Shown piece after piece: positions 1 through 22,129 of a DNA stretch of 64,000 nt (position 1 is the first letter of the stretch; every line of letters begins with the position of its first letter). The stretch is from Acidobacteriota bacterium (GTDB lineage: Bacteria > Acidobacteriota > Blastocatellia > Pyrinomonadales > Pyrinomonadaceae): the NCBI GenBank assembly GCA_019639235.1, contig JAHBSG010000005.1, forward strand, positions 62,001 to 126,000, written 5' to 3'. Under the pieces are notes generated by a model. The model made no database searches and was not told where the DNA came from. It saw only the letters and a program-made list of their open reading frames with translations. The position numbers and the translations under genes were made by a program.

Positions 1-1173
1 CGGATTGCCGGGGAATCTTGCCCCTTTGCCTGAGGCACCGTGGCAACTCGAACAGATCGTCGAGTAAAGCGTCGCCGGCTCCGTCAGGAACTCGCGTTCT
101 CCGAATCGCATCGCCTTGACCCTGTCCTTTGGCAAAAAGATGTCCGGCAGGCTCCGCCGCCGAAGCGAGAGCATATACATCGTGAGCAGGTCGATCTCTT
201 GTTCATTTAGATCGAGGGCAGGCATCAGAGAACCCGGAACCGTCGAGGCCGGCGAGCGGAAGTGCTGGGCGATCCAGTTCGAGAGTGTCCGTTCGCCCGG
301 TACATTCCGGAAGTTGAGCTGATTCGGATCCCTTTCGCCGACCCGCGAGAGGTCAGGGCCATTCTGGCCCCCGAAGCCGCTGACCGCGTGGCAACCCGTG
401 CAGCCGACCGAGTTGAACTGGGCTCGAGCCTCGATCAGCTTCGGTGCGCCCATCTGCGTATCGAGAAGCAGTTTGAGCAGTCGCAGATCGGCGTCGCCTA
501 TCTCGCGGAAAGAGTTCTTCCATGCTTCGCTTGTACCTTCACGGCTCTTGCCGAGGTGCGAGACGTACCACTCGGCGTCGTAGCCCTTGAGCCCGATGTG
601 CGAAAGGTCCGGGCCGTCCATGCCGGTCACATTTCCGCCGGGCCGGATAGTCCCGCCGCGGCCGTCGAGCCGGTGGCAAGCGTAGCAATCGAGCCGTTCG
701 AAGGCCTGCCGGGCCGAGGTCAGCGAAGCGAGGTTCGGGACGTCGAGCGGCGTATGGCAGGTACCGCAGCTTGCGTAGGCATATTTTGCAGGTAGCATTG
801 GCTCGGTCCAGAAATGGACGTCGCCGTGAGCGTCGTCCATCTCGGTCGCCTGACCCTGCCCGCCGTGGCACGTAGTGCAGCCCATCACTGCCGGGTCGTG
901 GACGACCGGCTTATGCGGCTGCGCGACCTTGAGTTGCGATGTGATCTGCTCGCCCGGTGCCATCCCTACGTGGCACGTAACGCAGCGATCGGTTCGCCTC
1001 AGGTCATTGTTGACCACCTGCCGGAGCCGGACCTCGATCGGTCCGTCCTCGGTCCTTGCCTGCCCCTGGATCGCGTGCCAGTCCTTCAGAAAATTCTCCG
1101 AAACGGCAGCAACGATCAGGAGCACGAAGACTCCGATGCTTGAAACCATCAAAAGGTATTTGTTCTTCTTCAT
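1..1173 (-). CDS. membrane-anchored hexahaem c-type cytochrome (3' end outside window)
   Basis: The reading frame is open from an ATG at 1173 to the window edge (391 residues, no stop), so the C-terminus is missing. Residues 6-24 form one hydrophobic segment, either an uncleaved anchor or a signal. Six haem-binding CXXCH motifs follow: CVTCH 64-68, CTTCH 99-103, CGTCH 136-140, CYACH 163-167, CTGCH 258-262 and CSSCH 374-378. More may lie beyond the edge. The second half (250-391) resembles mono-haem cytochrome c domains in tandem. The start lies 4 bp after the cytochrome b stop, so the two are translationally coupled. The likely role is electron acceptor or outlet of the Rieske/cytochrome b complex on the periplasmic face. 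The exact partner is unknown. Confidence 0.9.
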   Translation of the reverse strand, partial: MKKNKYLLMVSSIGVFVLLIVAAVSENFLKDWHAIQGQARTEDGPIEVRLRQVVNNDLRRTDRCVTCHVGMAPGEQITSQLKVAQPHKPVVHDPAVMGCTTCHGGQGQATEMDDAHGDVHFWTEPMLPAKYAYASCGTCHTPLDVPNLASLTSARQAFERLDCYACHRLDGRGGTIRPGGNVTGMDGPDLSHIGLKGYDAEWYVSHLGKSREGTSEAWKNSFREIGDADLRLLKLLLDTQMGAPKLIEARAQFNSVGCTGCHAVSGFGGQNGPDLSRVGERDPNQLNFRNVPGERTLSNWIAQHFRSPASTVPGSLMPALDLNEQEIDLLTMYMLSLRRRSLPDIFLPKDRVKAMRFGEREFLTEPATLYSTICSSCHGASGKGARFPGNP

Positions 1174-1177
1174 GGCA

Positions 1178-2725
1178 TCAATGAGCTTTCCAATCAGCCG
1201 GCGACCAAAAGAAGACCCAGTTTGGCCCGCGGAAATACGTGCCGATCACCGTCAGAACGATGAAGCCGCACAGAAAACAGGTGAATAGAGCAAGTGCTCC
1301 TGCCCGTGTCGAGTTGAACCGCCGCAAAGCCCAGATCGAATAGCCCGCGTAAAGAGCTGTGATCACCGTTCCGGGATTGAGAAAGGTGATGACGAGCTGC
1401 GGTACATCCGGGAACCACTCGCGAAGCCAGCCAAAGCGGATGGCAAATGCCTCGACGGCGATCGACGTCGCAAAACCATAGACCATTGACCACAATGCAA
1501 GGCGTCGGCCGCCGGGCCCGCCGAACCACTCGCCCGTGCCCTCGGTCTCCTTGTCGAGGAACGGGATCAGGCCGAGGCCGATCCAGCAGAGCATCGGAAT
1601 GCCGATGCCGCCCATGAACGCCGAGAACGAAACGATCTCCTGCAGGCCGAGGAAGTACCAAGGAGCCTTTGCCGGGTTTTCGGGCACGAGTGGATTGGCG
1701 AGTTCCTTGAGCGGGGCGTCCGAGACAAGCGCAAGAGCGACACAGATCAACGTTGTGAACATCAAAATGCCGAGCTCAGCGTAGAAAAGATGCGGCATCG
1801 ATGGAACCGTGTTCTCAGGCCCGCTGCCGACCGCCGGAGTGCGGCCCTTGACGACCGCAGCAAGCTGATATGTTTTCTTCGGCTCTTCGGTAAAGACCGG
1901 ATAATGCTCGGGCTGCGAAACGCTTACGCGTTCGTTCACATCGGCCGGTTTTGCCAGCCCGCCGTCCTTTCGGATCCGCCAGAAATGGACCGCCATCAAC
2001 ATTGCCATCACGATCGGCAGGATCATCACGTGCAGCAGATAGAAGCGTATTAGTGACTCTTCGCCAACGATGTCCGAGCCGAGCAAGATCTCACGCTGCA
2101 GCCCGCCGATGTCCATCCATTCCGTGATGCCCATTGCGTCCGTGATCTCGCGCGGCGATTGGGCGATGTTCGCCCCGATGGTGATCGCCCAGTAGGCGAG
2201 TTGGTCCCAGGGCAAAAGGTAGCCGGTGAATGAAAGTGCGAGCGTCGTTACCAGCAAGCCCCAGCCGATCAGCCAATTGAACTCACGCGGCTTGCGGTAC
2301 GAGGCTGTGTAAAATGCCCGTGCCATGTGGAGGATCACCGCGACGACCATCACGTTCGCCGCCCAGCGGTGAATGTTTCGGATGAATCGCCCGGTTGGCA
2401 CGATGAAGTGAATGTCCTTGATCGAATGGTAAGCGACGTCCGGGTACGGCTTGTAATAGAACATCAGCAGCACGCCCGTGACCAGAGTTATCAGAAACGC
2501 GGCGGTCGTGATGATGCCGAGCCCCATCGTCGCCGACCAGCGAAGGCTCCAGAGGTGCGTCCGCACGGAGTGCAGATGCAGGAAGACATTGCCGAAGACG
2601 AAGGACGAACGCGTGCGGTCCGTGACCGGGGCACCACCGCGAAACATCGCCCGGTAGAGATCCACCGGCACCGCTCGAAGGTTGTGCCAGAAAGTGTTCA
2701 GAGCTGTTCTCTCTTCGTTTTCCAT
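1178..2725 (-). CDS. cytochrome b subunit of a Rieske/cytochrome b complex
   Basis: A 515-residue membrane protein with the N-terminal four-helix cytochrome b domain and the C-terminal (subunit IV-like) domain in one chain. The predicted bis-His ligands are H119/H133 and H232/H247. The second pair is separated by 14 residues, as in b6-type rather than mitochondrial proteins. The Qo-site region has APWY (about 354-357) where PEWY is usual, in the context KAPWYFLGLQE. It oxidises quinol and passes electrons to the Rieske protein encoded just upstream (3 bp gap). A multihaem cytochrome c follows after 4 bp, in the place of a classical cytochrome c1/f. The family assignment is firm; the exact complex type is inferred. 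Confidence 0.93.
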   Translation of the reverse strand: MENEERTALNTFWHNLRAVPVDLYRAMFRGGAPVTDRTRSSFVFGNVFLHLHSVRTHLWSLRWSATMGLGIITTAAFLITLVTGVLLMFYYKPYPDVAYHSIKDIHFIVPTGRFIRNIHRWAANVMVVAVILHMARAFYTASYRKPREFNWLIGWGLLVTTLALSFTGYLLPWDQLAYWAITIGANIAQSPREITDAMGITEWMDIGGLQREILLGSDIVGEESLIRFYLLHVMILPIVMAMLMAVHFWRIRKDGGLAKPADVNERVSVSQPEHYPVFTEEPKKTYQLAAVVKGRTPAVGSGPENTVPSMPHLFYAELGILMFTTLICVALALVSDAPLKELANPLVPENPAKAPWYFLGLQEIVSFSAFMGGIGIPMLCWIGLGLIPFLDKETEGTGEWFGGPGGRRLALWSMVYGFATSIAVEAFAIRFGWLREWFPDVPQLVITFLNPGTVITALYAGYSIWALRRFNSTRAGALALFTCFLCGFIVLTVIGTYFRGPNWVFFWSPADWKAH

Positions 2726-2728
2726 GTC

Positions 2729-3208
2729 TTAGACCTTTGTGCCGGAGGCGACCGTCGTTTCCTCATCTATCACGACCGCATTCCCGCGAGCGGTCACCTT
2801 AAGCCACGGCAGCGGTTTCGGGGCCGGGCCTTTGGTCACAGCCCCGTCCGCCGCAAAGCCCGACCCGTGGCACGGGCATTCAAAGCCGTTCGGCAAAGCT
2901 TTCACGATGCACCCAAGATGTGTACAAACGGTCGAGATCGCATAAACGCCTTCCGTATCGCGAAAGACGGCAACGTTCCGGCCCGGCGGGACGAATGCCT
3001 CGCCGGCGGGAAGAGCATCGGGAATATCGACCTCGAACTTTTTCGAGGGTGAGGCCGAGACCGCCGCCTTTGGCAGCCGCAGCATTCCGAAAGCCGAGAC
3101 CAGCAGTGCCAACGCCATCGAACCCAAAGCCGCGAGGCCGAGGAAATCTCGCCGCGGCACCGGTTCGGGGTCGAAACGCGAGGGTTTTTCTTTTGGCTTC
3201 GTCGTCAT
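2729..3208 (-). CDS. Rieske [2Fe-2S] protein of the bc-type complex
   Basis: A 159-residue Rieske protein. The cluster-binding boxes are CTHLGC (95-100) and CPCHGSGF (111-118), so both Cys/His pairs and the disulfide cysteines are present. The N-terminus has a twin-arginine-like start (RRDFLG at 19-24) followed by a hydrophobic helix (about 25-45), as expected for a Tat-exported, membrane-anchored Rieske subunit. It accepts one electron from quinol at the cytochrome b Qo site. It overlaps the upstream flavoprotein gene by 4 bp (ATGA) and is 3 bp from the cytochrome b gene, so all are one transcript. Confidence 0.94.
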   Translation of the reverse strand: MTTKPKEKPSRFDPEPVPRRDFLGLAALGSMALALLVSAFGMLRLPKAAVSASPSKKFEVDIPDALPAGEAFVPPGRNVAVFRDTEGVYAISTVCTHLGCIVKALPNGFECPCHGSGFAADGAVTKGPAPKPLPWLKVTARGNAVVIDEETTVASGTKV

Positions 3209-5118
3209 AGTGTTCTCCAGGTTGATGAAAATGTGACCCGCTCCATCGTGATCGCATCGACCGGGCAGCGGATCGAGCAGAGTGCGCAGCGAATGCAGCG
3301 GTCCTCGTCCTTGAGGATCGCGGAGTTTGCTTCGAGGTCCGGGTCGGGTCCAAGCGAGGCCCCGATCACCACGTCCAGATCATCGGTGTAATCAAGCTCG
3401 GCGAGCGGGACGAGTTTGAGACACTCGGTCGGGCAAACGTCCACGCAGCCGCCGCAGAGCACGCACCGTGTGCCGTCAAAGACGGGCGTTACGCCGCAGT
3501 CAAGGCACCGCGAAGCTTCGGTCATCGCCTGCTCGCGTGTATAGCCGATCTCGACGACCCGGTCCGGGTCGGCAAGCCTCTCTTCGGGCTCGATGGTCGG
3601 CATCTCGACCCGACGGATCGACTCGTAGCCGCGTTCGCGTCGGTAACGCTCAAGCGGAAGGTGCGAGGTCGTCGCATCGGTGGTTAGCTGGCGGCCGGTT
3701 ATAAAGCTGTAAACCGAACGAGCGGCGGATTTGCCGGAGGCAACGGCGTCGATCAGCAATCGAGTGCCGTGAGCAAGGTCGCCCGCAACAAAGACGTCCG
3801 GTGCGGTCGTCTGCTGAGTTTCGCGCTCGACCTTCAGCCAGCCGTTGCCGATCTTTTCAACATCGGTGCCGCCGTCTTCGAGGAACTGAAGCTTCGGCGC
3901 TTGTCCAACTGCGAGAAGAACGGTGTCGCACGGAACTTCTTTGATGATCGAATCATCGAAAATAGGCGCGAACTTGCGATCCTCGTCATATACCCGCAGG
4001 CATTTGCGGAACCGGACGGCGGCAACATGCCCATCATCGCCGCGGACGATCTCCACCGGGCCCCAGCCGTTCTCGCGTTGAATTCCTTCTTCATCGCCCT
4101 CGACTATCTCGATCGTATCGGCCGGCATTTCCTCGGCACTTTCGAGCGAGAACAGGATGACGCTGCCGGTCTCTTCGAGCCGTGCGGCGGTCCTTGCCGT
4201 ATCGATCGCGACCTGACGGACGACCGTCCGGGCCACATCATAGGCGACATTTCCGCCGCCGATGACGACGATGTTCTTGCCCAAATGAAGCCGCTCGCCA
4301 AGCGAGACCGAGCGAAGGAGGTCAACACCGCCGAGAACGCCGGGGCCGCTCTCGCCGGTCAGGCCGAGGCCGCGGGAAGACTTTGCGCCAACGGCGATGA
4401 TGACCGCCTTGTGGTCGCGGCGGAGTTCAGCGAAAGAGATGTCTTTCCCGATCTCTATTCCTGTCCGGATCTCGACGCCGAGAGCTTCGATGACGGCGAT
4501 CTCTTTCGTTATCAGTTCACGCGGGAGCCGATATGCCGGAACGCCAACGGCGAGCATCCCGGCGGTAACGTTTTCGAGTTCGTAAACCGTTGGGCGAAAG
4601 CCCATTATCGCGAGGTCATGTGCGGCGGAGAGCCCTGCCGGCCCGGCACCGATGATCGCGACCGGTTCGCCTTCCGCCCTTACGAATTTGCCGTCAACTG
4701 CGGAATGGAGCAGGGCAGCCATTTCCTCGGCATGAGCCGCGATCGGCGGAACGAAGCGCTCGACCGCAGCGAGCACCTCGCTGACCGGCCGAGACTCGGG
4801 CCCGGACTGCTCACAGGCAAACCGCTTCAAAGCACGGATCGAAACCGGCCGGTCGATGCCGACGAATGCGCCATCGTCGTCAACTCTTGGAACCTTGCCC
4901 CGACGGCACGCCGTCTCGCATGGCGCACCGCAGATCCTTCCGCAGATAGAGGCGAACGGGTTCGGCCCGCGGGCGATGAGATATGCTTCCTCAAAACGGC
5001 CGTCGGCGATGGCACGGATGTAGCCGCGAGCGTCGGTATTGACCGGGCACGCGGCCTGGCAAGAGATCAAATTCTTGTGATAGTCCTTGTCCGGGACCTG
5101 AACTTTCAGGTACGGCAT
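3205..5118 (-). CDS. GltD/NfnB-like FAD-NAD(P) oxidoreductase with two C-terminal ferredoxin modules
   Basis: A 637-residue cytoplasmic flavoprotein of the glutamate synthase small-subunit family. The N-terminal Fe-S domain has C20, C24, C59, C63, C67 and C71. It lacks the first cysteine of the usual CxxCxxxCP. The FAD-binding motif GAGPAG is at 157-162, and a second Rossmann motif (GGGNVAYD) near 285 should bind NAD(P)H. The C-terminal 100 residues carry ferredoxin-type cysteines: CxxC with CxxCxxC around 540-570, and C608/C611/C614/C618. It is the first gene of the Rieske/cytochrome b/cytochrome c operon. That suggests it couples pyridine nucleotide (or ferredoxin) directly to the quinone complex. 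No glutamate synthase large subunit is nearby, so an amidotransferase role is unlikely. Confidence 0.85.
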   Translation of the reverse strand: MPYLKVQVPDKDYHKNLISCQAACPVNTDARGYIRAIADGRFEEAYLIARGPNPFASICGRICGAPCETACRRGKVPRVDDDGAFVGIDRPVSIRALKRFACEQSGPESRPVSEVLAAVERFVPPIAAHAEEMAALLHSAVDGKFVRAEGEPVAIIGAGPAGLSAAHDLAIMGFRPTVYELENVTAGMLAVGVPAYRLPRELITKEIAVIEALGVEIRTGIEIGKDISFAELRRDHKAVIIAVGAKSSRGLGLTGESGPGVLGGVDLLRSVSLGERLHLGKNIVVIGGGNVAYDVARTVVRQVAIDTARTAARLEETGSVILFSLESAEEMPADTIEIVEGDEEGIQRENGWGPVEIVRGDDGHVAAVRFRKCLRVYDEDRKFAPIFDDSIIKEVPCDTVLLAVGQAPKLQFLEDGGTDVEKIGNGWLKVERETQQTTAPDVFVAGDLAHGTRLLIDAVASGKSAARSVYSFITGRQLTTDATTSHLPLERYRRERGYESIRRVEMPTIEPEERLADPDRVVEIGYTREQAMTEASRCLDCGVTPVFDGTRCVLCGGCVDVCPTECLKLVPLAELDYTDDLDVVIGASLGPDPDLEANSAILKDEDRCIRCALCSIRCPVDAITMERVTFSSTWRTL

Positions 5119-12383: not shown

Positions 12384-13853
12384 TCAAAAGCTGTAAACGG
12401 CGGCGAGATTTACGTGGTTCGAGTTCTGCCGTCGGCTCAATGTCCAGTCGGTCTGGAAGCGGCGAAACTCGATGCCGGCCGAGAACTGCGGAGAAAACTT
12501 ATAGATCGCCTCGACCGCAGCCGCGAAGTTGCGGGTCCGCACATCACGCGGGACGAACGTAACAAGGTCTTCATTCCGCGGGTCGTCAAGCCCGAGCGAA
12601 CCGTAGATGGTAAGCCGGTCGCGGAAGGCGTTGGGCGTAAAGCCGAGCTGCGCCCAACCGCCGCGTGTCCCGATCGCCCGAACGCCGCCGGGCACAAGCG
12701 TGCTGCCGTTTCGGTAAGCGAACTCGGCATTCAGGCCCTGAAAGATCCCGGCCTGAAACCCGGCCAGGTTCCTGCCGGTAAACGCTTCGCCGGTCAGGAT
12801 CAGTCGGTCATGAAGCGGCAGGTTCCAGTCAAGCGCGATGCCGACGGAATCCGAATCGTTCTTTACGCCCGATGCGCCTGTAAAGACCCGCGAGCGGCCG
12901 TAATGGCCGGAGATGGCGATGCTGCCGGGTTTCTTGGTGTCGAGGACGTTGGAATCGGCGATCGAAACGCGGCCCTGAAAGTAAGGGACTCGCGACGCGG
13001 AACCGGAATTCGGCTGAAGAAAAAATGCGGCGTTCGTCGCCGAATCGCCCGACTGCGGAGCGGCAACGGCTGCCTGTATCGTTACAAATTTACCAAGTTT
13101 AGTTTCGGCCTTGATCTGCGGAAGCCTTGCCCAGTTGTTGCCGGCCGCGGCCATCTGCGGGATCGCGGCCGCCGCCAGCGAGGTCGGGCTTGCGGGTGCG
13201 AAAACCGACCAGTCTTGCCCGAGCGTCAGCGAAGTTCTCTCCCATGCGAGCTTCACATTCGCCAGCCGCAAGCGGACAACGCCGAAGTTCTCACCAATGC
13301 CGACCGAAGGAAAACCGCCAAAGAAATCTGCCTCGAGCACCGCTGAAAGATTCGCGTTTCCGGCCCTTGCACCTTCGAGCCGAACGCCGAACCGCGTTTG
13401 CCTGAGCGAAGCGCCCGTTCCGCCGCGGCCGGCCGGGGTCGCAAAGAGCGGCACATCCGCATTGTTCGTTCCGCCCGAGTTCGTGAAAGCATTGAAATAG
13501 ACCGAGCCGTAGGGCGTAAGCCTCGCACTCCCAACATTCACTCCGAGTTCGGGCTTCTGCTGCGCTGCCGGAACGGTCTCGGCCGTCTTTGTATCGCCGG
13601 GCGATTCAACCGCTGGGGTTGGTGACCCGCCAACTCCTGCGGTTTCGACTGGCGACTTGATTAACGCTGTAAGTTCATCAAGCCGCCGTTTCAACTCGGC
13701 GATCTGATCCTCAAGGATTCTGATCTTTTCAGCTTCGGGTGTGATGTCTTGCGCGCTCGGCCGATCCGCTCTGGCCTGCGCCGCTATCGTCGTCGGAAGA
13801 AGCAAGAACACGAAAAACAGAACTGCTGCATAAAGATAAGAAAAACTTTTCAT
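12384..13853 (-). CDS. outer-membrane porin with N-terminal coiled coil
   Basis: A 489-residue protein, taking the ATG at 13853 (GGAG 9 bp upstream, then a signal peptide ending near QAQA). Residues about 40-68 form a short coiled coil (EKIRILEDQIAELKRRLDEL), followed by a Pro/Thr linker and a long beta-rich region with alternating hydrophobic residues. It ends in VYSF, the terminal Phe typical of BAM-assembled barrels. The layout resembles DcaP-like trimeric porins. It lies directly after the nitrate operon on the same strand (179-bp gap), so it could admit nitrate or another anion, but nothing in the sequence proves the substrate. Confidence 0.78.
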   Translation of the reverse strand: MKSFSYLYAAVLFFVFLLLPTTIAAQARADRPSAQDITPEAEKIRILEDQIAELKRRLDELTALIKSPVETAGVGGSPTPAVESPGDTKTAETVPAAQQKPELGVNVGSARLTPYGSVYFNAFTNSGGTNNADVPLFATPAGRGGTGASLRQTRFGVRLEGARAGNANLSAVLEADFFGGFPSVGIGENFGVVRLRLANVKLAWERTSLTLGQDWSVFAPASPTSLAAAAIPQMAAAGNNWARLPQIKAETKLGKFVTIQAAVAAPQSGDSATNAAFFLQPNSGSASRVPYFQGRVSIADSNVLDTKKPGSIAISGHYGRSRVFTGASGVKNDSDSVGIALDWNLPLHDRLILTGEAFTGRNLAGFQAGIFQGLNAEFAYRNGSTLVPGGVRAIGTRGGWAQLGFTPNAFRDRLTIYGSLGLDDPRNEDLVTFVPRDVRTRNFAAAVEAIYKFSPQFSAGIEFRRFQTDWTLSRRQNSNHVNLAAVYSF

Positions 13854-14032
13854 CGCGTTTCTCCGGTTCAATTGTGTATATAAAGATCCAGCACAAGGGA
13901 ACCAAAGGTGCAACATCCGTGCCCATTCTCGTTACTTCTTTGAAGAGCAAGCGAAAAGCCCGCTCACATTGGGACTGGCTTTGTAATTGGGCGATCATTG
14001 GCGCGAAAAACTCCACACCGTCGATTGGATAC

Positions 14033-15220
14033 TTACGCGGGCTGCTTGGCCGTCCGGTTCTCGTCTCGGACGAACCAAAATTGATTGATCACGAGGCACG
14101 CGAACGAAAATGCCGAGAGCAATACGAATCCGAGGGCATAGCTGCCTGTCAGGTCCTTAACGATACCCAACTCAAGCGGAGGAAAAAAGCCCCCAAGCCC
14201 ACCAAAGGCACCAACCAAACCGGTGACCGTTCCGGTTTCCTTCGGGAAATATTGTGGAACGAGCTTGAAAATCGCACCATTTCCAAGCCCAAGCATTGTT
14301 GCGCAACCGAGTGCTCCGATGGTGAACGCCGTCATTATCGGGAGGCTGAGTAGCAAAGAAAGCAGTCCGATACCGAGAAAAACGATTATCAGTACCCTTG
14401 CACCGCCTAGACGGTCTGCGAGTATACCTCCGACCGGACGAGCCAAGGTTGCAAGTATCACAAAACCCGCCGTCCGGGCACCCGCATCGGTTGGCGAAAG
14501 ATCAAAGATCTCGCGAAGAAACGTCGGCAGATAAAGGGCTAGTGCGACAAAGCCGCCAAAAGTAAGAAAGTAAAAGAGCGACAAGATCCAGGCCGTCGGA
14601 GAACGTTTCAGTACACCTAGGCTTTCCACAAGCGAGGCCTTTCGGCGTTCTCCTGGCGCGTCTCGGGCAAAGATGAAAAATACGATGCCCCAAATGAGCG
14701 ATATCGCGGCAAAGATGATGAACACCCAACGCCAATCACCGAGCCATAAAGCGAGAACCGGAGCAGAAAATACCGCAACCGACTGGCCGATATTGCCCAT
14801 GCCGTAGATCCCAAGCGCGGTTCCTTGCTTTTCAGGCGGGTACCAACGAGATGTAAAGCCGATGCCGACAGGAAACGTTGTCCCAGCGGCACCGAGAAGC
14901 AGCCCAAAGATGATAAGTTGGGCGTAGCTTGTAGAAAAGGCGATGGCGATCGCCGGGAATGCCGAAAAGATCAGGAGTCCGGCGAAGACCGCACGACCGC
15001 CGAATCGATCGGCAAGCATTCCCGCAAATAGTCTGCCGACCGAGCCGAGCAAAACGGGCACAGCGATAAGAACGCTTTTCTGGATTCCGGAAAGGCCATA
15101 GAGGTCCGTAAAGAGTGGAGCCAGTGCAGCCACCAGTCCCCAGACTGCAAAAGACACGCCAAAAGAAACTGTTGAAAGGGCCAGGGCCTTGGTCGATCCG
15201 GCCGAACCTGTGGTGTTCAT
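14033..15220 (-). CDS. narK: NarK/NasA-type nitrate/nitrite MFS transporter
   Basis: A 395-residue protein with 12 predicted transmembrane helices. It has the MFS loop signature GRLFAGMLADRFGGR (near 61-75) and the nitrate-porter feature of a Gly-rich TM5 (GNIGQSVAVFSAP), with matching GLGNGAIFKLVPQYFP in the second half. These are characteristic of NarK/NrtA-type permeases. It brings nitrate to the cytoplasmic reductase encoded upstream, or exports nitrite. It is the last gene of the nitrate operon, 9 bp after the DUF3565 gene. Confidence 0.9.
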   Translation of the reverse strand: MNTTGSAGSTKALALSTVSFGVSFAVWGLVAALAPLFTDLYGLSGIQKSVLIAVPVLLGSVGRLFAGMLADRFGGRAVFAGLLIFSAFPAIAIAFSTSYAQLIIFGLLLGAAGTTFPVGIGFTSRWYPPEKQGTALGIYGMGNIGQSVAVFSAPVLALWLGDWRWVFIIFAAISLIWGIVFFIFARDAPGERRKASLVESLGVLKRSPTAWILSLFYFLTFGGFVALALYLPTFLREIFDLSPTDAGARTAGFVILATLARPVGGILADRLGGARVLIIVFLGIGLLSLLLSLPIMTAFTIGALGCATMLGLGNGAIFKLVPQYFPKETGTVTGLVGAFGGLGGFFPPLELGIVKDLTGSYALGFVLLSAFSFACLVINQFWFVRDENRTAKQPA

Positions 15221-15229
15221 AAAAATCTG

Positions 15230-15454
15230 TTAGATATGTTCGCTATTAAGATAAATGTCAGGAGGAACGGCCTCGTCGCACTTCCGGCAATCGATTTCGA
15301 GGCCGATGCGCGAGTCCCGCCCGCCTGCAGTTAGTGTCCAATTTCGTGTTCTGAGCGGCGGGCCGTGCCGCATATGCTCGAAATGACCGCGATCGAGGGC
15401 GGCGAGCCATTGGTACTTCTCGTCGCAGTCGAAGGTGAAGATGCATCTCAACAT
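15230..15454 (-). CDS. DUF3565 family small protein
   Basis: A 74-residue protein matching the DUF3565 pattern: an acidic start (DCDEKYQWLAALDRGH), a H-x-x-H-x-R-H-x-P-P core (GHFEHMRHGPP), then R-x-W-x-L-T (RNWTLT) and a C-terminal CRKC. The His and Cys residues suggest a small metal or redox site. Members are known mainly from gammaproteobacteria and have no established function. Here it is inside the nitrate operon, 5 bp after the small membrane protein and 9 bp before narK, which points to an accessory role in nitrate metabolism. Confidence 0.7.
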   Translation of the reverse strand: MLRCIFTFDCDEKYQWLAALDRGHFEHMRHGPPLRTRNWTLTAGGRDSRIGLEIDCRKCDEAVPPDIYLNSEHI

Positions 15455-15459
15455 CGACG

Positions 15460-15774
15460 CTAAGTCCCCGACTGATCGCTATTGCGTCCCGGTGGGCGGC
15501 GGGAGATCGGCTTCCACCAGAAAAAGATGGTCAACGCAATCAGCCAACAAACCGCGGAGGCGATGATCAGCGGAAGAAGCTGATGGTAATGCTGGGCGAG
15601 AGCGGCTTCGACCGTAGCGGCAAGTATCCAAAGTTGGGCGAGATTGATCATCACCAGCATTACCAGTCGGGCCTGCCAGACCGCCCGCCTTCCAAGCGGT
15701 GAAGGCCGCCGCTTTACAGTATAGGGCTGGCTGACCGATGAAAATCGCTGAGGTGCTTTCAAGCTATCCGGCAT
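15460..15774 (-). CDS. small two-helix membrane protein of the nitrate operon
   Basis: A 104-residue protein with a basic N-terminal 34 residues, two hydrophobic segments (about 36-58 and 67-86) and a short basic tail. It overlaps the Rieske gene by 11 bp and lies 5 bp before the DUF3565 gene. I do not recognise a characterised family. The tight coupling to the Rieske gene suggests a small structural subunit or assembly factor of the membrane-bound reductase. Confidence 0.65.
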   Translation of the reverse strand: MPDSLKAPQRFSSVSQPYTVKRRPSPLGRRAVWQARLVMLVMINLAQLWILAATVEAALAQHYHQLLPLIIASAVCWLIALTIFFWWKPISRRPPGRNSDQSGT

Positions 15775-16330
15775 ATCCGCCTCCTTTGCGTCCGAGCGCC
15801 GTTACCTGGCCATCCGATGAGACCTCGATCTCGATCTCGTCGAGCGGTCGCGGCGGAGGTCCGTAGAGTACCGCCCCTGTTTTGGCGTCAAAGGCACCTT
15901 CGTGGCACGGGCATTCGAGCCGGTCGTGTTCCTTTGCGTAATAGACCGGACACGCAAGGTGCGTGCACTTCTGCCCAAAGGCGTGGTAGTTTCCGTCGTT
16001 GTCTCGGATCAGTATAGCGGTGTCGTTCTCACCCGGATAGTGGAAATTGAGAGCCGAGCCCGGCTGCATTCCCTCCGAGCCCTCGACCCTCATACTGTCG
16101 AAAGCGCGTGCCTTCGTCGAATCGTAAGCCGATTTTGCGGCAAATCCCGATGCCGAAACGAAGAGAGCGGTCGAGGTCAGCGTCAGAAAATTGCAGAACT
16201 GCCGTCGCGTTACCTGTGCCTCATCCTCGCGGCTGTAGGGAAATTCATATTGATGGTCGGCCGTCGCTTCGCGGACGTCCCTGTCGGTCGAAAGCACATT
16301 CTCCCTTGCTTCTTTGAATTTCTTTTCCAT
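15764..16330 (-). CDS. Tat-dependent Rieske [2Fe-2S] protein of the nitrate operon
   Basis: A 188-residue Rieske protein. After a hydrophilic N-terminal 40 residues comes a twin-arginine signal (TRRQFCNFL at 41-49) and a hydrophobic anchor. The cluster boxes are CTHLACPVYY (122-131) and CPCHEGAFD (140-148), so all ligands are present. It should sit on the periplasmic side next to the NarI-like cytochrome b. Rieske subunits are unusual in bacterial nitrate reductases, although haloarchaeal Nar clusters have one. It is 33 bp downstream of the ferredoxin gene. Confidence 0.88.
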   Translation of the reverse strand: MEKKFKEARENVLSTDRDVREATADHQYEFPYSREDEAQVTRRQFCNFLTLTSTALFVSASGFAAKSAYDSTKARAFDSMRVEGSEGMQPGSALNFHYPGENDTAILIRDNDGNYHAFGQKCTHLACPVYYAKEHDRLECPCHEGAFDAKTGAVLYGPPPRPLDEIEIEVSSDGQVTALGRKGGGYAG

Positions 16331-16363
16331 AACGTTTTTCGTTGAACGAGCTGTCCGGATCGA

Positions 16364-17014
16364 TCAGAACTCGTTTCGGTTATCCGAGCTTTCGACCTGT
16401 GTCTCAAGCCAGGAAGCCTTTCGTCCTTCCTCCCGCTCGACGGCTACCCGGCCTTCAAAGACGCCGCAGCCATCAACCTCGACCTCTTCGGCATCGGTCG
16501 GGAGCATCAGATATACCTTCGTCTCGACGCGCTGATTGCCGAAAACGTGAGCATTTACGGGTTTCGTCTTTCGCTTCGGCACGACCTCTTCATACGTGCC
16601 GAATGTGATCGCACCGGTCGGGCAAACGCTCGCGCACATCGGCATCAGGCCCTCGCTCGTCCGGTCGTAACACATATCGCACTTCATCTGCAGGTGCATC
16701 GCTGAGTTGTACTTCGGCACCCCGAACGGGCAAGCGTTGACACAATTGCGGCAATCAAGACATCTCGGCTTTAGTGCGGACATCACGATGCCGTCCTCGT
16801 TCTGCTTGATAGCGTCCGCCGGGCAAACAAGTGCGCAGGTCGGTTCGCTGCAATGCATGCAGAGCGTCGGCATAGTGGCGGTCGTTTCCGCCCGGTCAAT
16901 GTAATCGACGAAGATCATCGAATAACCCTTGTGGGTCGAGCATTCTCGGCAGGCAGCAACGCATGATCGGCAACCGATGCATCGCTGAGGATCGATGAAC
17001 ATTGTTTCTTGCAT
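16364..17014 (-). CDS. four-cluster [4Fe-4S] ferredoxin subunit (NrfC/DmsB-like)
   Basis: A 216-residue protein with four cysteine groups: CIGCRSCVAAC (12-22), CMHC...CALVCP (52-65), CLDCRNCVNACP (about 84-95) and CDMC...CASVCP (about 110-129). It has no signal peptide. This is the electron-transfer subunit layout used by molybdopterin oxidoreductases of the DMSO reductase family. It probably wires the molybdenum subunit to the membrane cytochrome b. The C-terminal 80 residues are charged and may bind a partner. The gene is 3 bp after the catalytic subunit gene. Confidence 0.9.
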   Translation of the reverse strand: MQETMFIDPQRCIGCRSCVAACRECSTHKGYSMIFVDYIDRAETTATMPTLCMHCSEPTCALVCPADAIKQNEDGIVMSALKPRCLDCRNCVNACPFGVPKYNSAMHLQMKCDMCYDRTSEGLMPMCASVCPTGAITFGTYEEVVPKRKTKPVNAHVFGNQRVETKVYLMLPTDAEEVEVDGCGVFEGRVAVEREEGRKASWLETQVESSDNRNEF

Positions 17015-17017
17015 AAT

Positions 17018-19252
17018 CTATTTTCCTTGCTGCGCCTCGTTGAGCGATGTGCCCTGCCTCGCCTGTCCGAGTATCGGCAGTTGCCGCGAAGCGACCTTTT
17101 CGATCCGCGCCGCACATGCCTTGAATTCCGGTATCTTTGACGTTGGATCCAGGGCCGGGTTCGTCAGTTGATTCACGGCAAGCTCCTCGCCCCAGTGATA
17201 GGGTACGAAGATCGTGTCCGGTCGGATGGTCCGCACGACCAGGGCCGGGAAGACCCCGCTTCCGCGTCGGGAAACGACCTTTACGCGTTCGCCATCCGCG
17301 ATCTCGAGCTTCTTTGCGGTTTCGGGATGGATCTCAACGTACGGCTCCGGACACTGATCGACGAGGAACTTGATCCTTCGCGTCTGGTTGCCGGATAGAT
17401 ACTGGAACACAACGCGGCCGCTCGTCAGGATAAGCGGATACTCGTCGTCGGGCTTCTCGTCAGCGCCCTTGTATTCGACCGCGTGGAATCGGGCCTTTCC
17501 GTCGGGATGATAAAAGCGATCCTCGAACATCCGCGGTGTTCCGGGGTGATCGTCGGTCGGGCATGGCCAAAAGACACCATTCTCGCGCTCTATCCGTTCC
17601 CAGCTTATGCCGCCGTAATCGGCAGTGCCTCCGCGCGAGGCCTCACGAAGTTCATTGAACATCTCGCGCGAGTGCGTGTACGGGAAAAACTTCTCGCGGC
17701 CGAGCCGCTTTGCCAATTGCTGGACGATCCACCAGTCAGGCTTCGCTTCACCAGGCGGTTCCGTCGCCTTGTTGATCTTCAGCACGCGGCCTTCGCCGTT
17801 GGTTGTCACGCCTTCGTCCTCCGACCACGCCGTACCGGGCAGAACGACATCGGCATACCGAGCCGCCTCGGACATGAAAAAGTCGATGCAGACATAGAAA
17901 TCAAGGCCCTCAAGAGATTCACGGACCTTGTTCGTATCGGGCAGCGAGACCATCACATTGTTGCAAACCGAGATCAACCCGCGTATCTCGCCCTCGCGCA
18001 TCTTTTGAAACATCTCCACGACCGAAACACCGGCCTGCGGCAATTCATCTTCCGCGATGCCCCAGAATTCGGCCATGTGTTTCCTGTGTTCGGGATTGTT
18101 AATAGAACGCTGGCCCGGAAGTTGGTCCGACTTCTGGCCGTGTTCGCGGCCGCCCTGGCCGTTGCCCTGTCCGGTAAAGGTCGCGTATCCTCGGCCCGGA
18201 GCGCCGATCTTTCCGGTCGCAAGGACAAGATTGATGTAGCTGAGTACGTTATCGACACCGTTAGAGTGATGCTCTATACCCCGGGCGTGGAGCACGAATC
18301 CGGTCTTCGCCCGTCCATAGAGCCGGGCCGCCTGGACGATCTTTTCCGCCGGAACGCCTGTGATCTCCGCACAATACTCGGGCGTGTACTTCTCAAGGAT
18401 TACCTCGCGAGTCTCAGTCCAGCCGTTCGTCCGATTTGAGATGAATTGCTCATCAACGTAACCCTCCTTAATGATCACGTGAAGCATTCCGTTTGCGAGC
18501 GCAACGTCAGTTCCCGGCCTTAGCTGAAGGTGCAGGTCGCCTTGGCGGGCGGTCGGCGTTTCTCGTGGATCGATTATGATCCAGATGCCGCCATTATCAC
18601 GCTGCTCCCACATGTACTTGTTAAGTATCGGGAACGTCTCGGCACAGTTCGCACCGGTGATAAGGAGGACCTCCGAAAGCGGAATGTCGCTCCATGGGTT
18701 GGCTGCCCGGTCAACTCCGAAGGCCTTGTTGTTTCCCGCCGCTGCGGAGACCATGCACAGCCGGCCGTTATAGTCCACGTAGCGGGTCTGCAAACCGACC
18801 CGTGCGAATTTGCCCATAACATAGGTCTTTTCCGTGGTCAGTGAAGATCCGGAATAAAGGGCCATCGAGTCGTTTCCGTATTTCGACCTCAGCTCCTTGA
18901 TCTTTGCAGTGATCAGATCAAGGGCCTCGTCCCAGCTTGCCCGCTCGAAAAGGCCGTTTCGTTTTATCAGCGGATGCTTGAGCCTGTCCGGATGGTGCGC
19001 CTGAAGGTAGGCCGTGACGCCTTTCGGGCACAGTTTTCCCTCATTCACCGGAAAGTCATACCGCGGCTCAAACCCGACGACGTGATCGTTCTCGACCAAC
19101 AGGTTCATTCCGCATTGAACGGCGCAGTAAGGGCAGTGCGTCGGTACGACCTTGTCTATCTTCCGATCCGCCTTCCAACCGCCATACGGGGCGTCATGCA
19201 GGCTTGGGCCAAATTCGGCGATTATTCTTTCGAGGTTCTCTACTTTACTCAT
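17018..19252 (-). CDS. Nas-type molybdopterin nitrate reductase catalytic subunit
   Basis: A 744-residue protein. I take the ATG at 19252, which overlaps the upstream stop (ATGA); a longer frame would run back into the membrane subunit gene. The N-terminal [4Fe-4S] ligands are C40, C43, C47 and C75. The molybdenum ligand is probably C166 in NGRLCMVSAAAG, matching the Cys-type Nas/Nap group rather than the Asp of NarG. The C-terminal molydopterin dinucleotide-binding domain (about 630-735) is complete. There is no Tat signal, so it works in the cytoplasm. Substrate nitrate is inferred from NarK and from similarity to Nas. Formate dehydrogenase-like activity is less likely because the active-site residue is Cys and not Sec in the formate dehydrogenase context. 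Confidence 0.87.
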   Translation of the reverse strand: MSKVENLERIIAEFGPSLHDAPYGGWKADRKIDKVVPTHCPYCAVQCGMNLLVENDHVVGFEPRYDFPVNEGKLCPKGVTAYLQAHHPDRLKHPLIKRNGLFERASWDEALDLITAKIKELRSKYGNDSMALYSGSSLTTEKTYVMGKFARVGLQTRYVDYNGRLCMVSAAAGNNKAFGVDRAANPWSDIPLSEVLLITGANCAETFPILNKYMWEQRDNGGIWIIIDPRETPTARQGDLHLQLRPGTDVALANGMLHVIIKEGYVDEQFISNRTNGWTETREVILEKYTPEYCAEITGVPAEKIVQAARLYGRAKTGFVLHARGIEHHSNGVDNVLSYINLVLATGKIGAPGRGYATFTGQGNGQGGREHGQKSDQLPGQRSINNPEHRKHMAEFWGIAEDELPQAGVSVVEMFQKMREGEIRGLISVCNNVMVSLPDTNKVRESLEGLDFYVCIDFFMSEAARYADVVLPGTAWSEDEGVTTNGEGRVLKINKATEPPGEAKPDWWIVQQLAKRLGREKFFPYTHSREMFNELREASRGGTADYGGISWERIERENGVFWPCPTDDHPGTPRMFEDRFYHPDGKARFHAVEYKGADEKPDDEYPLILTSGRVVFQYLSGNQTRRIKFLVDQCPEPYVEIHPETAKKLEIADGERVKVVSRRGSGVFPALVVRTIRPDTIFVPYHWGEELAVNQLTNPALDPTSKIPEFKACAARIEKVASRQLPILGQARQGTSLNEAQQGK

Positions 19253-20364
19253 TGATTTTGCGAGAGTTCGGTTCTGCTGGTTTCCCCGGCCCGTTCGCCA
19301 AAGAATACCGGCTCCCTCCGCTTCGGCAGCCCGGCATAGGCAAGCCCGCGTAGGACCCGCTTGCAACGCGGGCAATAGTCCTGAAGTGTTCTTCCGTCTT
19401 CCATTTTGTAATCAAAGCCAAGTTGTCCGACGACCTTCTTTAGATCCTCGACCCACATCTTGCCGGCGAACAGCGTTCCGCAGCGTGGACACTCGGCCTG
19501 TTCCATCTCGGCAGAACGCTTCTGGTAAAGCTCGACGCCGATCGAGGCCGGCCGCTGAACGATATGGAAAAGCTTTCCAAAAGGCAGGAAAAAGAGCGTC
19601 ATTATAACCGTGGCTTGATGTGAAAGAGCTATGAACTGGTACATGTATCCGCCGAAGAAAAGGCTTGAGACGGTGAGCATAAGGCCCGTCACGGAGATCG
19701 CAATCAGGAGCATGTACGGTGTGAAATCAAGTAAAAATGTCTGGTACGCAATGGCACCGCGATCCCGCAGACGGCGGCGGATGGCGATGGCACATCCTAG
19801 AATGACCATGATCGCCGTAAAGTCGAGGGCATGGAAGGTCAGCCATGCAATGATGCTTCGGGCGTCCATCAACTGCAGGGCGAACCCGAAAACATAAGCT
19901 CGATAACCCATATCGCCTTCGAGTTTGAAATGTACCCAGCCGAAAGAAAGCGGGAAGGTTATCAGAGCCGAAAGGATGCAGCCCCACATTATCAGTTGGT
20001 GCATCAGCCACCGCTCGGATCCGCGTTTAAAGATAAAGCGTTGTTCCACAAGGCTCGTCGCCGCCGTCTTCGAGGCATCGCCGGCATTTCGCAAAAACTT
20101 GTGCCTCTGAAAAAAGAGCTTCATCCCGCGCCAAAAGTATGCCCGGGTCGCCGGCCGCTGGAGCCAAAGGGCGTATCGAAAAACGATCGCGCCAAACGCG
20201 ACCACGCTTGCTACAACGTAACCGAACAATGCCGAGTCAAAATGCTCCAGATTGCGTGAGCCAATGAAGACCAGCAGCGTCAGGAACGCCGACGCAGCGA
20301 TACCGAGCAGTGTCGGGTTTCGGTTGCTAAATTCCGGAGCGGAAATCGTATTTTCTTCGCGCAT
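19249..20364 (-). CDS. NarI/HdrE-like dihaem cytochrome b with C-terminal CPRC pair
   Basis: A 371-residue protein, taking the ATG at 20364; the longer frame starts at a TTG. It has about six hydrophobic segments. Four histidines in or near helices (H122, H178, H249, H267) fit two bis-His b haems as in NarI-type subunits. The C-terminal 80 residues are soluble and carry two CPRC motifs (292-295 and 331-334), which look like a zinc ribbon or rubredoxin-like site. The first gene of the nitrate operon, it should oxidise quinol and pass electrons towards the ferredoxin and Mo subunits. The C-terminal extension is not part of canonical NarI. Confidence 0.8.
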   Translation of the reverse strand: MREENTISAPEFSNRNPTLLGIAASAFLTLLVFIGSRNLEHFDSALFGYVVASVVAFGAIVFRYALWLQRPATRAYFWRGMKLFFQRHKFLRNAGDASKTAATSLVEQRFIFKRGSERWLMHQLIMWGCILSALITFPLSFGWVHFKLEGDMGYRAYVFGFALQLMDARSIIAWLTFHALDFTAIMVILGCAIAIRRRLRDRGAIAYQTFLLDFTPYMLLIAISVTGLMLTVSSLFFGGYMYQFIALSHQATVIMTLFFLPFGKLFHIVQRPASIGVELYQKRSAEMEQAECPRCGTLFAGKMWVEDLKKVVGQLGFDYKMEDGRTLQDYCPRCKRVLRGLAYAGLPKRREPVFFGERAGETSRTELSQNQ

Positions 20365-20401
20365 GGTATTAAAAACGGATCTACCGAGACGATTCAATAT
20401 C

Positions 20402-20481: not shown

Positions 20482-20805
20482 TCACCGGATCGCTTCAAAT
20501 CGCAGGATGGTCGTCCTGCCGTTTGCCGAGGTTACGTCGAGCCCGTCTTCTTCGCCTGATTCTGAGAATTTGAACTCGATAGCCGTCACTTCCTCGATGC
20601 TGCGGGTCATGTCGCCAAGCATCAATTGGACAGCCGGCCTCTCGTCCTTGGTGTCAATATCTGCTCCGACAAAAGGCAGGCCGGACTCGATCCAATAGTC
20701 GTTCCCGTTCTCGAAAACGCCGAGCCGGGTCGGCCGCCCTTCAGACTTCTCGCTAAAAAACTTCAGAAAATCTGCCCATTCGTGTTTTTGTGCTGCTTTT
20801 GTCAT
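20482..20805 (-). CDS. DUF5335 family protein
   Basis: A 107-residue protein. The start at 20805 is fixed by a GGAGG ribosome binding site 8 bp upstream. The pattern WADFLKFFSE...GV...GADIDTKDERPAVQLMLGD and a C-terminal DVTSANGRTTILRFE matches DUF5335, a small mixed alpha/beta family without known function. It lies upstream of and on the same strand as the nitrate operon (117-bp gap). The 5' region can form two competing hairpins (described separately). Confidence 0.65.
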   Translation of the reverse strand: MTKAAQKHEWADFLKFFSEKSEGRPTRLGVFENGNDYWIESGLPFVGADIDTKDERPAVQLMLGDMTRSIEEVTAIEFKFSESGEEDGLDVTSANGRTTILRFEAIR

Positions 20806-20817
20806 TTCAATTACCTC

Positions 20818-20856
20818 CGGGCAATGCCCGAGCTGCGAGAATATTCGCACCTCGGG
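20818..20856 (-). promoter_or_regulatory. two overlapping hairpins in the leader of the DUF5335 gene
   Basis: Hairpin A pairs CCCGAG (20827-20832) with CTCGGG (20851-20856) around an inner TGCGA/TCGCA stem. Hairpin B pairs CGGGCA (20818-20823) with TGCCCG (20825-20830). They share 20827-20830 and so exclude each other. Hairpin B abuts the GGAGG ribosome binding site. There is no U tract, so A is not a classical terminator for the gene to the right. Confidence 0.45.
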
Positions 20857-20880: not shown

Positions 20881-21276
20881 CTAGCACTCCGTTCCCGCAT
20901 TCGGGTTTGGGAACATATCGGCCTCGTCCTCGCCCCGCCGCGGGTTGAGACATGCAAAATCCTTCTCGATCAGCACCCGCAACTCGGCACCATCGCCGAC
21001 CATCTTTGTGAACTCGATCGAAACCTCGTCGCCTGCCGCCCAATGGACCGCCGCCGTCCGCGGAAGGCTAACAACCACGCGGTTACCGGCAAACCGTGCG
21101 TCGGCTGCAGAAGCTTCATCGGAGCACTCGATCCCGTACGCAAGAACCGCTTCCGCTCCGGGGCCGAACGCCACGGATTCCTCGACCGCCGTGCCCGAGG
21201 CGAGTGCTTCAACCTCCGGCCGCGTAAGCCGCATGCGGATCGAATTATGCCTTAAACGCAGTTTCACAAAATGCAT
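20881..21276 (-). CDS. conserved small protein (DUF7009-like)
   Basis: A 131-residue protein starting [20 protein letters not shown] chose this ATG because homologous small proteins begin with the same K-x-R-x-x-x-N-S-I-R-x-R-L-T stretch; the longer frame would overlap the ABC gene leader. The C-terminus has KDFACL followed by [11 protein letters not shown], the conserved ending of this family. The function is unknown. The fold looks like a small beta protein. It is divergent from the ABC exporter, with 88 bp between the starts. Confidence 0.62.
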
Positions 21277-21364
21277 TGTCTCAAATTTCGTGCCGCTTTC
21301 GTGGTCAGCTCTTTGCACATCGTATCTTCGGAAGCCGAATTTTATAGAAAATCGGCACTTCGAA

Positions 21365-22129
21365 ATGAAGGAACCGCGACAACGATCAGGGGCAAATGCG
21401 AGCGATGCGGCCGCAAACACGGCTAGCGATGCCGTATTTCAGATCCGCGGGGTGACGAAGGTTTACCGCATGGGCGAGGTCGAGGTCCACGCATTGAAGG
21501 GCGTCGATCTTGAGCTTTACCGTGGTGAGTTGGTCGTTCTCCTCGGTGCCTCGGGAAGCGGAAAATCGACCCTGCTAAACATCATCGGCGGACTCGATAC
21601 GCCGACCGAAGGCACGGTGGTTTACCAGGACCACATCCTGACCTCGGCCGATGAATCCGAGCTTACGCGCTTTCGCCGCGAGCATGTCGGCTTTGTCTTT
21701 CAGTTCTATAACCTCATCCCGAGCCTGACGGCTCTTGAGAACGTCGAGCTTATAACCGAGATCGCCGAGAGCCCGATCTCCGCAAAAGAGGCGCTCGAAA
21801 TGGTCGGGCTCTCTGAGCGGATCAACCATTTTCCGGCACAGCTTTCGGGCGGCGAACAGCAGCGTGTGGCTATCGCCCGTGCCGTCGCCAAGCAGCCGGA
21901 TGTGCTGCTTTGCGATGAGCCGACCGGTGCGCTTGACGTGACGACCGGCAAGCTTGTTCTCAAGGTCATTGAAAAGGTAAATCGGGAACTCGGCACGACG
22001 ACCGCGATCATCACACACAATGCGGCGATCGCGGCGATGGCCGACCGCGTTATCCACATCGGAAGCGGACGGATCACCGAGATCATCCGGAATAGCGAGA
22101 AGAAGAGTCCCGATAGTTTGGTCTGGTAG
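21365..22129 (+). CDS. ABC transporter ATPase (LolD/MacB/DevA type)
   Basis: A 254-residue ATPase. Walker A is GASGSGKST (61-69), the Q-loop FQFYNL is near 112-117, the signature is LSGGEQQR (160-167) and Walker B is [11 protein letters not shown] (181-191). A 25-residue low-complexity N-terminus precedes the domain. It is followed 2 bp later by an FtsX-type permease and then an HlyD-like adaptor. This set matches DevBCA/MacAB-type mechanotransmission exporters, which move lipids, glycolipids or peptides across the envelope rather than importing solutes. Confidence 0.93.

Follow-up and report, generated by a model that had tools for sequence, protein, structure and literature searches.

The window, the whole 64,000-nucleotide stretch of DNA from a soil-type acidobacterium that we analysed, carries seven genes on the minus strand between positions 14033 and 20364, with overlaps or spacers of no more than about 40 bp. 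The first-pass annotation had described seven genes in one tight operon, and we found all of them present and closely packed as described. In order of transcription, and followed by a putative porin gene directly downstream, they are:

19249..20364, minus strand: cytochrome b with six predicted transmembrane helices and a C-terminal CxxC...CxxC (zinc-ribbon-like), a remote relative in the NarI superfamily
17018..19252, minus strand: Mo-bisMGD catalytic subunit of the Nas clade (NasC model, tree and active-site columns)
16364..17014, minus strand: four-cluster [4Fe-4S] ferredoxin subunit of the FdnH/DmsB/NarH type (PF13247; 16 invariant cluster cysteines)
15764..16330, minus strand: Rieske [2Fe-2S] protein with a twin-arginine motif and one N-terminal transmembrane anchor (PF00355)
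15460..15774, minus strand: small two-helix membrane protein, DUF6755-like (Pfam DUF6755, 24.0 bits, just below the cut-off of 27)
15230..15454, minus strand: DUF3565 protein, an accessory that is not universal (PF12088, 69 bits, above the cut-off)
14033..15220, minus strand: NarK-type nitrate/nitrite transporter (TIGR00886, E 1.2e-73)
12384..13916, minus strand: putative outer-membrane porin, a possible accessory (orthologues adjoin the operon elsewhere)

The match of NarK to its model covered the whole profile at 248 bits, below the cut-off of 311.7. Orthologues of the small membrane protein in Deinococcus operons bear the DUF6755 label, and our literature search found no paper naming either DUF6755 or DUF3565. 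Among the open reading frames of the operon, to which this search was limited, there was no NarJ-like gene; the operon also contains neither NirB nor a flavoprotein. The 510-residue porin is without a Pfam match, and its orthologues (about 58-62% identity) also adjoin the operon in three genomes of the same genus (G004, G020 and G009). Just upstream of the operon lie genes for a DUF5335-like and a DUF7009 protein (window positions 20482-20850 and 20881-21420); DUF7009 also occurs near the operon in loci L010, L015, L027 and L042, and DUF5335 occurs inside it in L026. We also looked for Fnr-type boxes (TTGAT-N4-ATCAA) upstream of the cytochrome gene, and in most loci these scored no better than shuffled sequences.

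To define how widely this arrangement occurs, we sought relatives of the cytochrome in the genus and class, in GTDB genomes (more than 500 candidate stretches, of which 80 were kept) and on Deinococcus plasmids. The core set of cytochrome b, Mo subunit, ferredoxin, Rieske protein and small protein was complete in 53 of the 54 loci that had enough flanking sequence, and these loci came from several phyla; NarK was nearby in 27 of the 54 and DUF3565 in 15. This recurrence is far beyond chance. Deinococcus plasmids carry the core set as well, and the operon was found in at least five phyla besides Acidobacteriota. Mo subunit, ferredoxin and Rieske genes also adjoin the most divergent subgroup of the cytochrome (L153-L156). 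Within the Acidobacteriota, 63 of 396 sampled genomes, representing 35 of 210 genera, encode the cytochrome. The order of the genes, whose conservation in Blastocatellia the first-pass annotation had left to be checked, is conserved there and well outside.

The catalytic subunit had been called Nas-like and devoid of a Tat signal, and both statements held. Its best match was the NCBIfam NasC model (884 bits, E 6e-266), yet this score lies below the equivalog cut-off of 1100, whereas the 693 bits scored against FDH-alpha (TIGR01591) exceed the cut-off of 666; the models for NapA, PhsA and NarG scored lower, at 310, 204 and 86 bits. In a maximum-likelihood tree of 50 proteins, polysulfide reductases not among them, the subunit clustered with 30 operon relatives (support 100/99), and this clade was grouped at 100/96 with soluble Nas-type proteins of Paenibacillus, Mycobacterium, Deinococcus taeanensis, Arthrobacter and Streptantibioticus. 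Formate dehydrogenases, NapA and NarG formed separate branches, with E. coli NarG far away. Of the two placements that the first-pass annotation had named as refuting, the one with formate dehydrogenases did not occur; for polysulfide reductases, the other one, the PhsA model scored far below NasC. The Mo ligand C166 and the [4Fe-4S] cysteines C40, C43, C47 and C75 are invariant. In all 31 operon proteins, methionine follows the ligand cysteine, where formate dehydrogenases have a histidine after Cys or Sec, and the position of the formate dehydrogenase catalytic arginine holds threonine, the residue of the window protein, or valine. Nas and Nap resemble the operon proteins at both positions. 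On the strength of these active-site columns we rejected a formate dehydrogenase identity, although the FDH-alpha cut-off was passed; with the NasC cut-off failed at the same time, automated pipelines may give all members of the clade a wrong name. The 744-residue product is without a twin-arginine N-terminus. A TTG start at 19375 would overlap the cytochrome gene, and the ATG at 19252 matches the starts of close relatives.

The soluble Nas/NasC enzymes of Paenibacillus, Mycobacterium and D. taeanensis share with this subunit the catalytic clade, the active-site residues, the single [4Fe-4S] cluster and the absence of a Tat signal. They differ in their surroundings: their annotated genes adjoin nirB, and in some cases also nirD, and next to them stands neither a cytochrome b nor a four-cluster ferredoxin nor an anchored Rieske protein. 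By contrast, the operon of the window has a membrane cytochrome, and no sirohaem nitrite reductase was detected in the genome that carries it, although the genomes of some relatives encode one. Periplasmic Nap has the same active-site residues and a related ancestry, but the subunit described here is not a Tat-exported catalytic subunit, has no NapB and occupies a separate branch of the tree.

We next considered the cytochrome, which had been annotated as dihaem and NarI-like. Residues are numbered in the 382-residue frame beginning at 20397. H133, H260, H278 and the four cysteines of the zinc-ribbon-like C-terminal tail are invariant in 52 relatives, whereas three of the 52 sequences lack H189 and seven lack H156. 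Because these two are never both missing, one of them is the likely fourth haem ligand, and we regard a dihaem cytochrome as likely, on the basis of three invariant histidines and one of two alternatives. The NarI-like label stood only as a remote and weak kinship, drawn from relatives and structure. The window protein by itself had no Pfam match, and PF02665 (Nitrate_red_gam) matched 17 of the 52 relatives, weakly (best 4.7e-6). An hhalign comparison with E. coli NarI gave an E value of 0.0012 and placed H260 and H278 on the histidine pair of the last NarI helix. Searching the sequence against solved structures returned nothing relevant. With an AlphaFold2 model (pLDDT 86), the Foldseek matches were weak throughout, with no E value below 0.001; the redox proteins among them were EtfD (probability 0.99) and NarI (0.96). 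Neither the Pfam nor the fold search pointed to a bc-type partner: the latter led to NarI and EtfD and not to bc1 cytochrome b. The distribution of positive charges predicts that the loops 75-132 and 207-224, the C terminus and likewise the N terminus are in the cytoplasm.

The two iron-sulfur subunits were as the first-pass annotation had described them, a four-cluster ferredoxin and a Tat-type Rieske protein. The ferredoxin belongs to the Fer4_11 family, with its 16 invariant cysteines in four sets, and its best match in the PDB was FdnH (1kqf_B), followed by related iron-sulfur subunits. In the Rieske protein, the arginine pair and the CTHLxC/CPCH residues are invariant. Its AlphaFold2 model (mean pLDDT 86) shows one long helix (residues 42-72), which looks like an uncleaved anchor, and then a beta Rieske fold whose nearest PDB entries were AioB and the Rieske proteins of bc and b6f complexes. 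It thus has the motifs, twin-arginine motif and transmembrane anchor of bc-type Rieske proteins. In bc1 Rieske proteins, a serine and a tyrosine raise the redox potential; the window protein has EGAF after CPCH in their place, suggesting a lower, menaquinone-like potential. An anchored Tat-type Rieske protein beside a cytochrome b is also what bc1 and b6f complexes have, but here the cytochrome is not of the bc type and there is no cytochrome c or f; the operon encodes no cytochrome c partner for the Rieske protein. Arsenite oxidase, AioAB, is likewise a Mo enzyme with a Rieske protein, and AioB is the closest in fold, but AioA lies on another branch of the superfamily, and in the operon cytochrome b and ferredoxin belong to the set.

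NarK and cytochrome b form a single open frame in 11 loci (L081, L084, L093, L096, L097, L098, L102, L103, L109, L113 and L118) from Acidobacteriota, Armatimonadota and Myxococcota. The fused proteins are mostly about 730-790 residues long, with NarK first. MFS transporters of the NarK kind end in the cytoplasm, and this order therefore agrees with a cytoplasmic N terminus of the cytochrome. The fusion links the cytochrome directly to nitrate transport and, as read from these sequences, supports nitrate as the substrate. Other apparent fusions in the list of overlapping reading frames (cytochrome b with Mo subunit, Mo subunit with ferredoxin, and ferredoxin with Rieske) lie in different frames and were discarded as artefacts. 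On Deinococcus plasmids the unfused cytochrome is annotated as an 'MFS transporter', a label that perhaps stems from the NarK-cytochrome b fusions.

We consider it likely that the operon encodes a nitrate reductase that is bound to the membrane, faces the cytoplasm and is linked to quinol, with a catalytic subunit descended from the soluble assimilatory Nas line. On the best reading of the evidence, Nar, Nap and soluble Nas are thereby joined by a fourth nitrate reductase architecture. NarK would import nitrate, and a quinol, probably menaquinol, would be oxidised at the periplasmic side of cytochrome b. Electrons would then cross two b haems, for which sequence and helix positions suggest H260 with H189 or H156 as the periplasmic ligands and H133 with H278 as the cytoplasmic ones. 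From the cytochrome they would pass through the four-cluster ferredoxin and the [4Fe-4S] cluster of the catalytic subunit to the Mo centre, where nitrate would be reduced to nitrite in the cytoplasm. The anchored Rieske protein would sit beside the cytochrome on the periplasmic side, taking one electron from the quinol site or exchanging electrons with a periplasmic carrier; alternatively, it may act as a buffer at the quinol site. In the organism itself, nitrite would be exported, and NrfHA, whose genes lie elsewhere in the genome, would then convert it to ammonium. We infer that the proteins form one complex, as well as its quinol donor, haem number, direction and Rieske role. In our literature search, mostly outside subscription journals, we found neither a description of a Nas-type respiratory architecture nor an assay of such an enzyme.

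The plan resembles that of NarGHI, which also combines a cytoplasmic Mo subunit, a four-cluster Fe-S subunit and a cytochrome b, to which the cytochrome here is remotely akin, and is also linked to NarK. It differs in that the Mo subunit here has a Cys ligand and belongs to another clade than type II NarG, that the cytochrome has six predicted helices, a zinc-ribbon-like tail and other histidine positions, and that a Rieske protein is added while no NarJ-like gene accompanies the set. Haloarchaeal pNar (NarGH with NarB/NarC) resembles the operon in that its nitrate reductase is likewise accompanied by a Rieske protein and a cytochrome b. However, pNar contains a type II NarG, and its NarC is a homologue of the bc1-type cytochrome b (PMC8301774).

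The pairing of a Rieske protein with a NarI-superfamily cytochrome b would also permit a more far-reaching interpretation, a Nas-derived respiratory class that works in a Q-cycle-like manner without a bc complex. The two proteins would split the electrons of quinol, one going by way of the cytochrome and ferredoxin to nitrate and the other to the Rieske protein and a periplasmic acceptor. We regard this as doubtful.

Another explanation is that the enzyme is a membrane-attached assimilatory nitrate reductase, fed by quinol, with NirB, NirA or NrfA making ammonium for biosynthesis. Its catalytic subunit is sister to NirB-linked soluble Nas, as this explanation would have it, and Deinococcus hosts are generally aerobes. 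Additionally, Pyrinomonas K22 encodes an 859-residue, NirB-sized PF01077 protein, so assimilatory use of the complex is possible in some hosts; this strain is listed with assimilatory nitrate and nitrite reductases (Eichorst et al., PMC5900883). The genome of the organism itself (98% complete) points in the other direction. We detected no sirohaem nitrite/sulfite reductase (PF01077, NIR_SIR) in it but found an intact NrfH-NrfA pair (G000:C12:34112-36063; L157:6113-8064), so that the classical assimilation route is missing. A scan of this NrfA gave five CxxCH motifs, so that CxxCH may take the place of CxxCK at its active-site haem. Most of the genus also lacks the sirohaem enzyme: among the 14 operon-bearing genomes, PF01077 was present in one and NrfA in four, one of these partial. 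In this genus NrfA and the operon therefore go together only loosely, a point against our preferred reading. Among 27 named carriers, PF01077 was found in 15 and NrfA over the cut-off in 11; the nine with neither would leave nitrite as a dead end for assimilation. In the examined operon flanks there was no NirB except for one weak match in L048. On these grounds we judge the assimilatory explanation improbable for the operon as a whole.

Other neighbours were consistent with respiration. NrfA adjoins the operon in six loci (L047, L065, L078, L103, G026 and G030). In 26 of the 80 loci the examined flanks encode an RIC-type Fe-S repair protein, which one would expect wherever nitrite and NO are formed, and in many they encode a Crp-type regulator. 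In 40 genomes, NirK matches were all below the cut-off and multicopper-oxidase-like. The first-pass annotation had proposed a respiratory enzyme built from an assimilatory-type subunit. The origin of the subunit stands, and the missing sirohaem reductase, the intact NrfHA, the RIC- and Crp-type neighbours and the membrane cytochrome suggest a respiratory rather than assimilatory role in this lineage, which is supported but not proven. The periplasmic electron branch that the same annotation ascribed to the Rieske protein would be one of several roles conceivable for it.

Ten kilobases from the operon, also on the minus strand, the organism has an NXR-like cluster that lies at the low edge of the window and runs on beyond it (window positions 1-5118 and G000:C42:56400-62000; L038:6417-13174). 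It encodes a Tat-type Mo protein of 1148 residues that matches Kuenenia NxrA over the full length (840 bits, E 3e-251), an NxrB-like protein of 380 residues, a 165-residue membrane protein, a 7-haem cytochrome c, a bc1-type cytochrome b, a Rieske protein and a GltD-like FAD protein. In three further acidobacterial loci (L083, L064 and L033), a cluster of this kind is found no more than about 10 kb from the Nas/cytochrome b operon. It is possibly a nitrite oxidoreductase or a nitrate reductase linked to a bc complex. As the organism may have a second nitrate/nitrite enzyme here, any nitrate reduction that it carries out cannot be credited to the Nas-type operon alone.

We also weighed whether the complex is exported, with the Tat signal of the Rieske protein carrying the Mo subunit and ferredoxin out to act in the periplasm on nitrate or another substrate. 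AioA, without a signal of its own, is held to be exported by means of that of AioB, and it is AioB to which the operon's Rieske protein is closest in both structure and profile. However, the operon includes the NarK importer, which is fused to the cytochrome in some hosts and argues for a cytoplasmic active site; the Rieske helix has the appearance of an anchor that is not cleaved; and the charges place the metal-binding tail of the cytochrome in the cytoplasm. This explanation seems very unlikely to us. We give still less credence to another oxyanion such as chlorate or selenate as the substrate, or to an oxidative direction in some hosts: the substrate cannot be fixed from sequence, and a Nap-type enzyme is able to reduce chlorate and perchlorate (PMC12769810), but the NarK linkage and fusion and the Nas-type active site stand against it.

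Surveys of nitrate respiration target narG and napA. An operon of the kind described here would be labelled as assimilatory nasA or, through the FDH-alpha cut-off, as formate dehydrogenase, and the gene set, though conserved, is almost undescribed. It could account for nitrate reduction in Granulicella mallensis and KBS 96, for which reduction of nitrate to nitrite was reported with only nasA present (PMC5900883). It also bears on the evolutionary interconversion of assimilatory and respiratory nitrate reductases. If the preferred reading of a membrane-bound, Nas-derived enzyme is right, the cell probably breathes nitrate without either classic respiratory enzyme.
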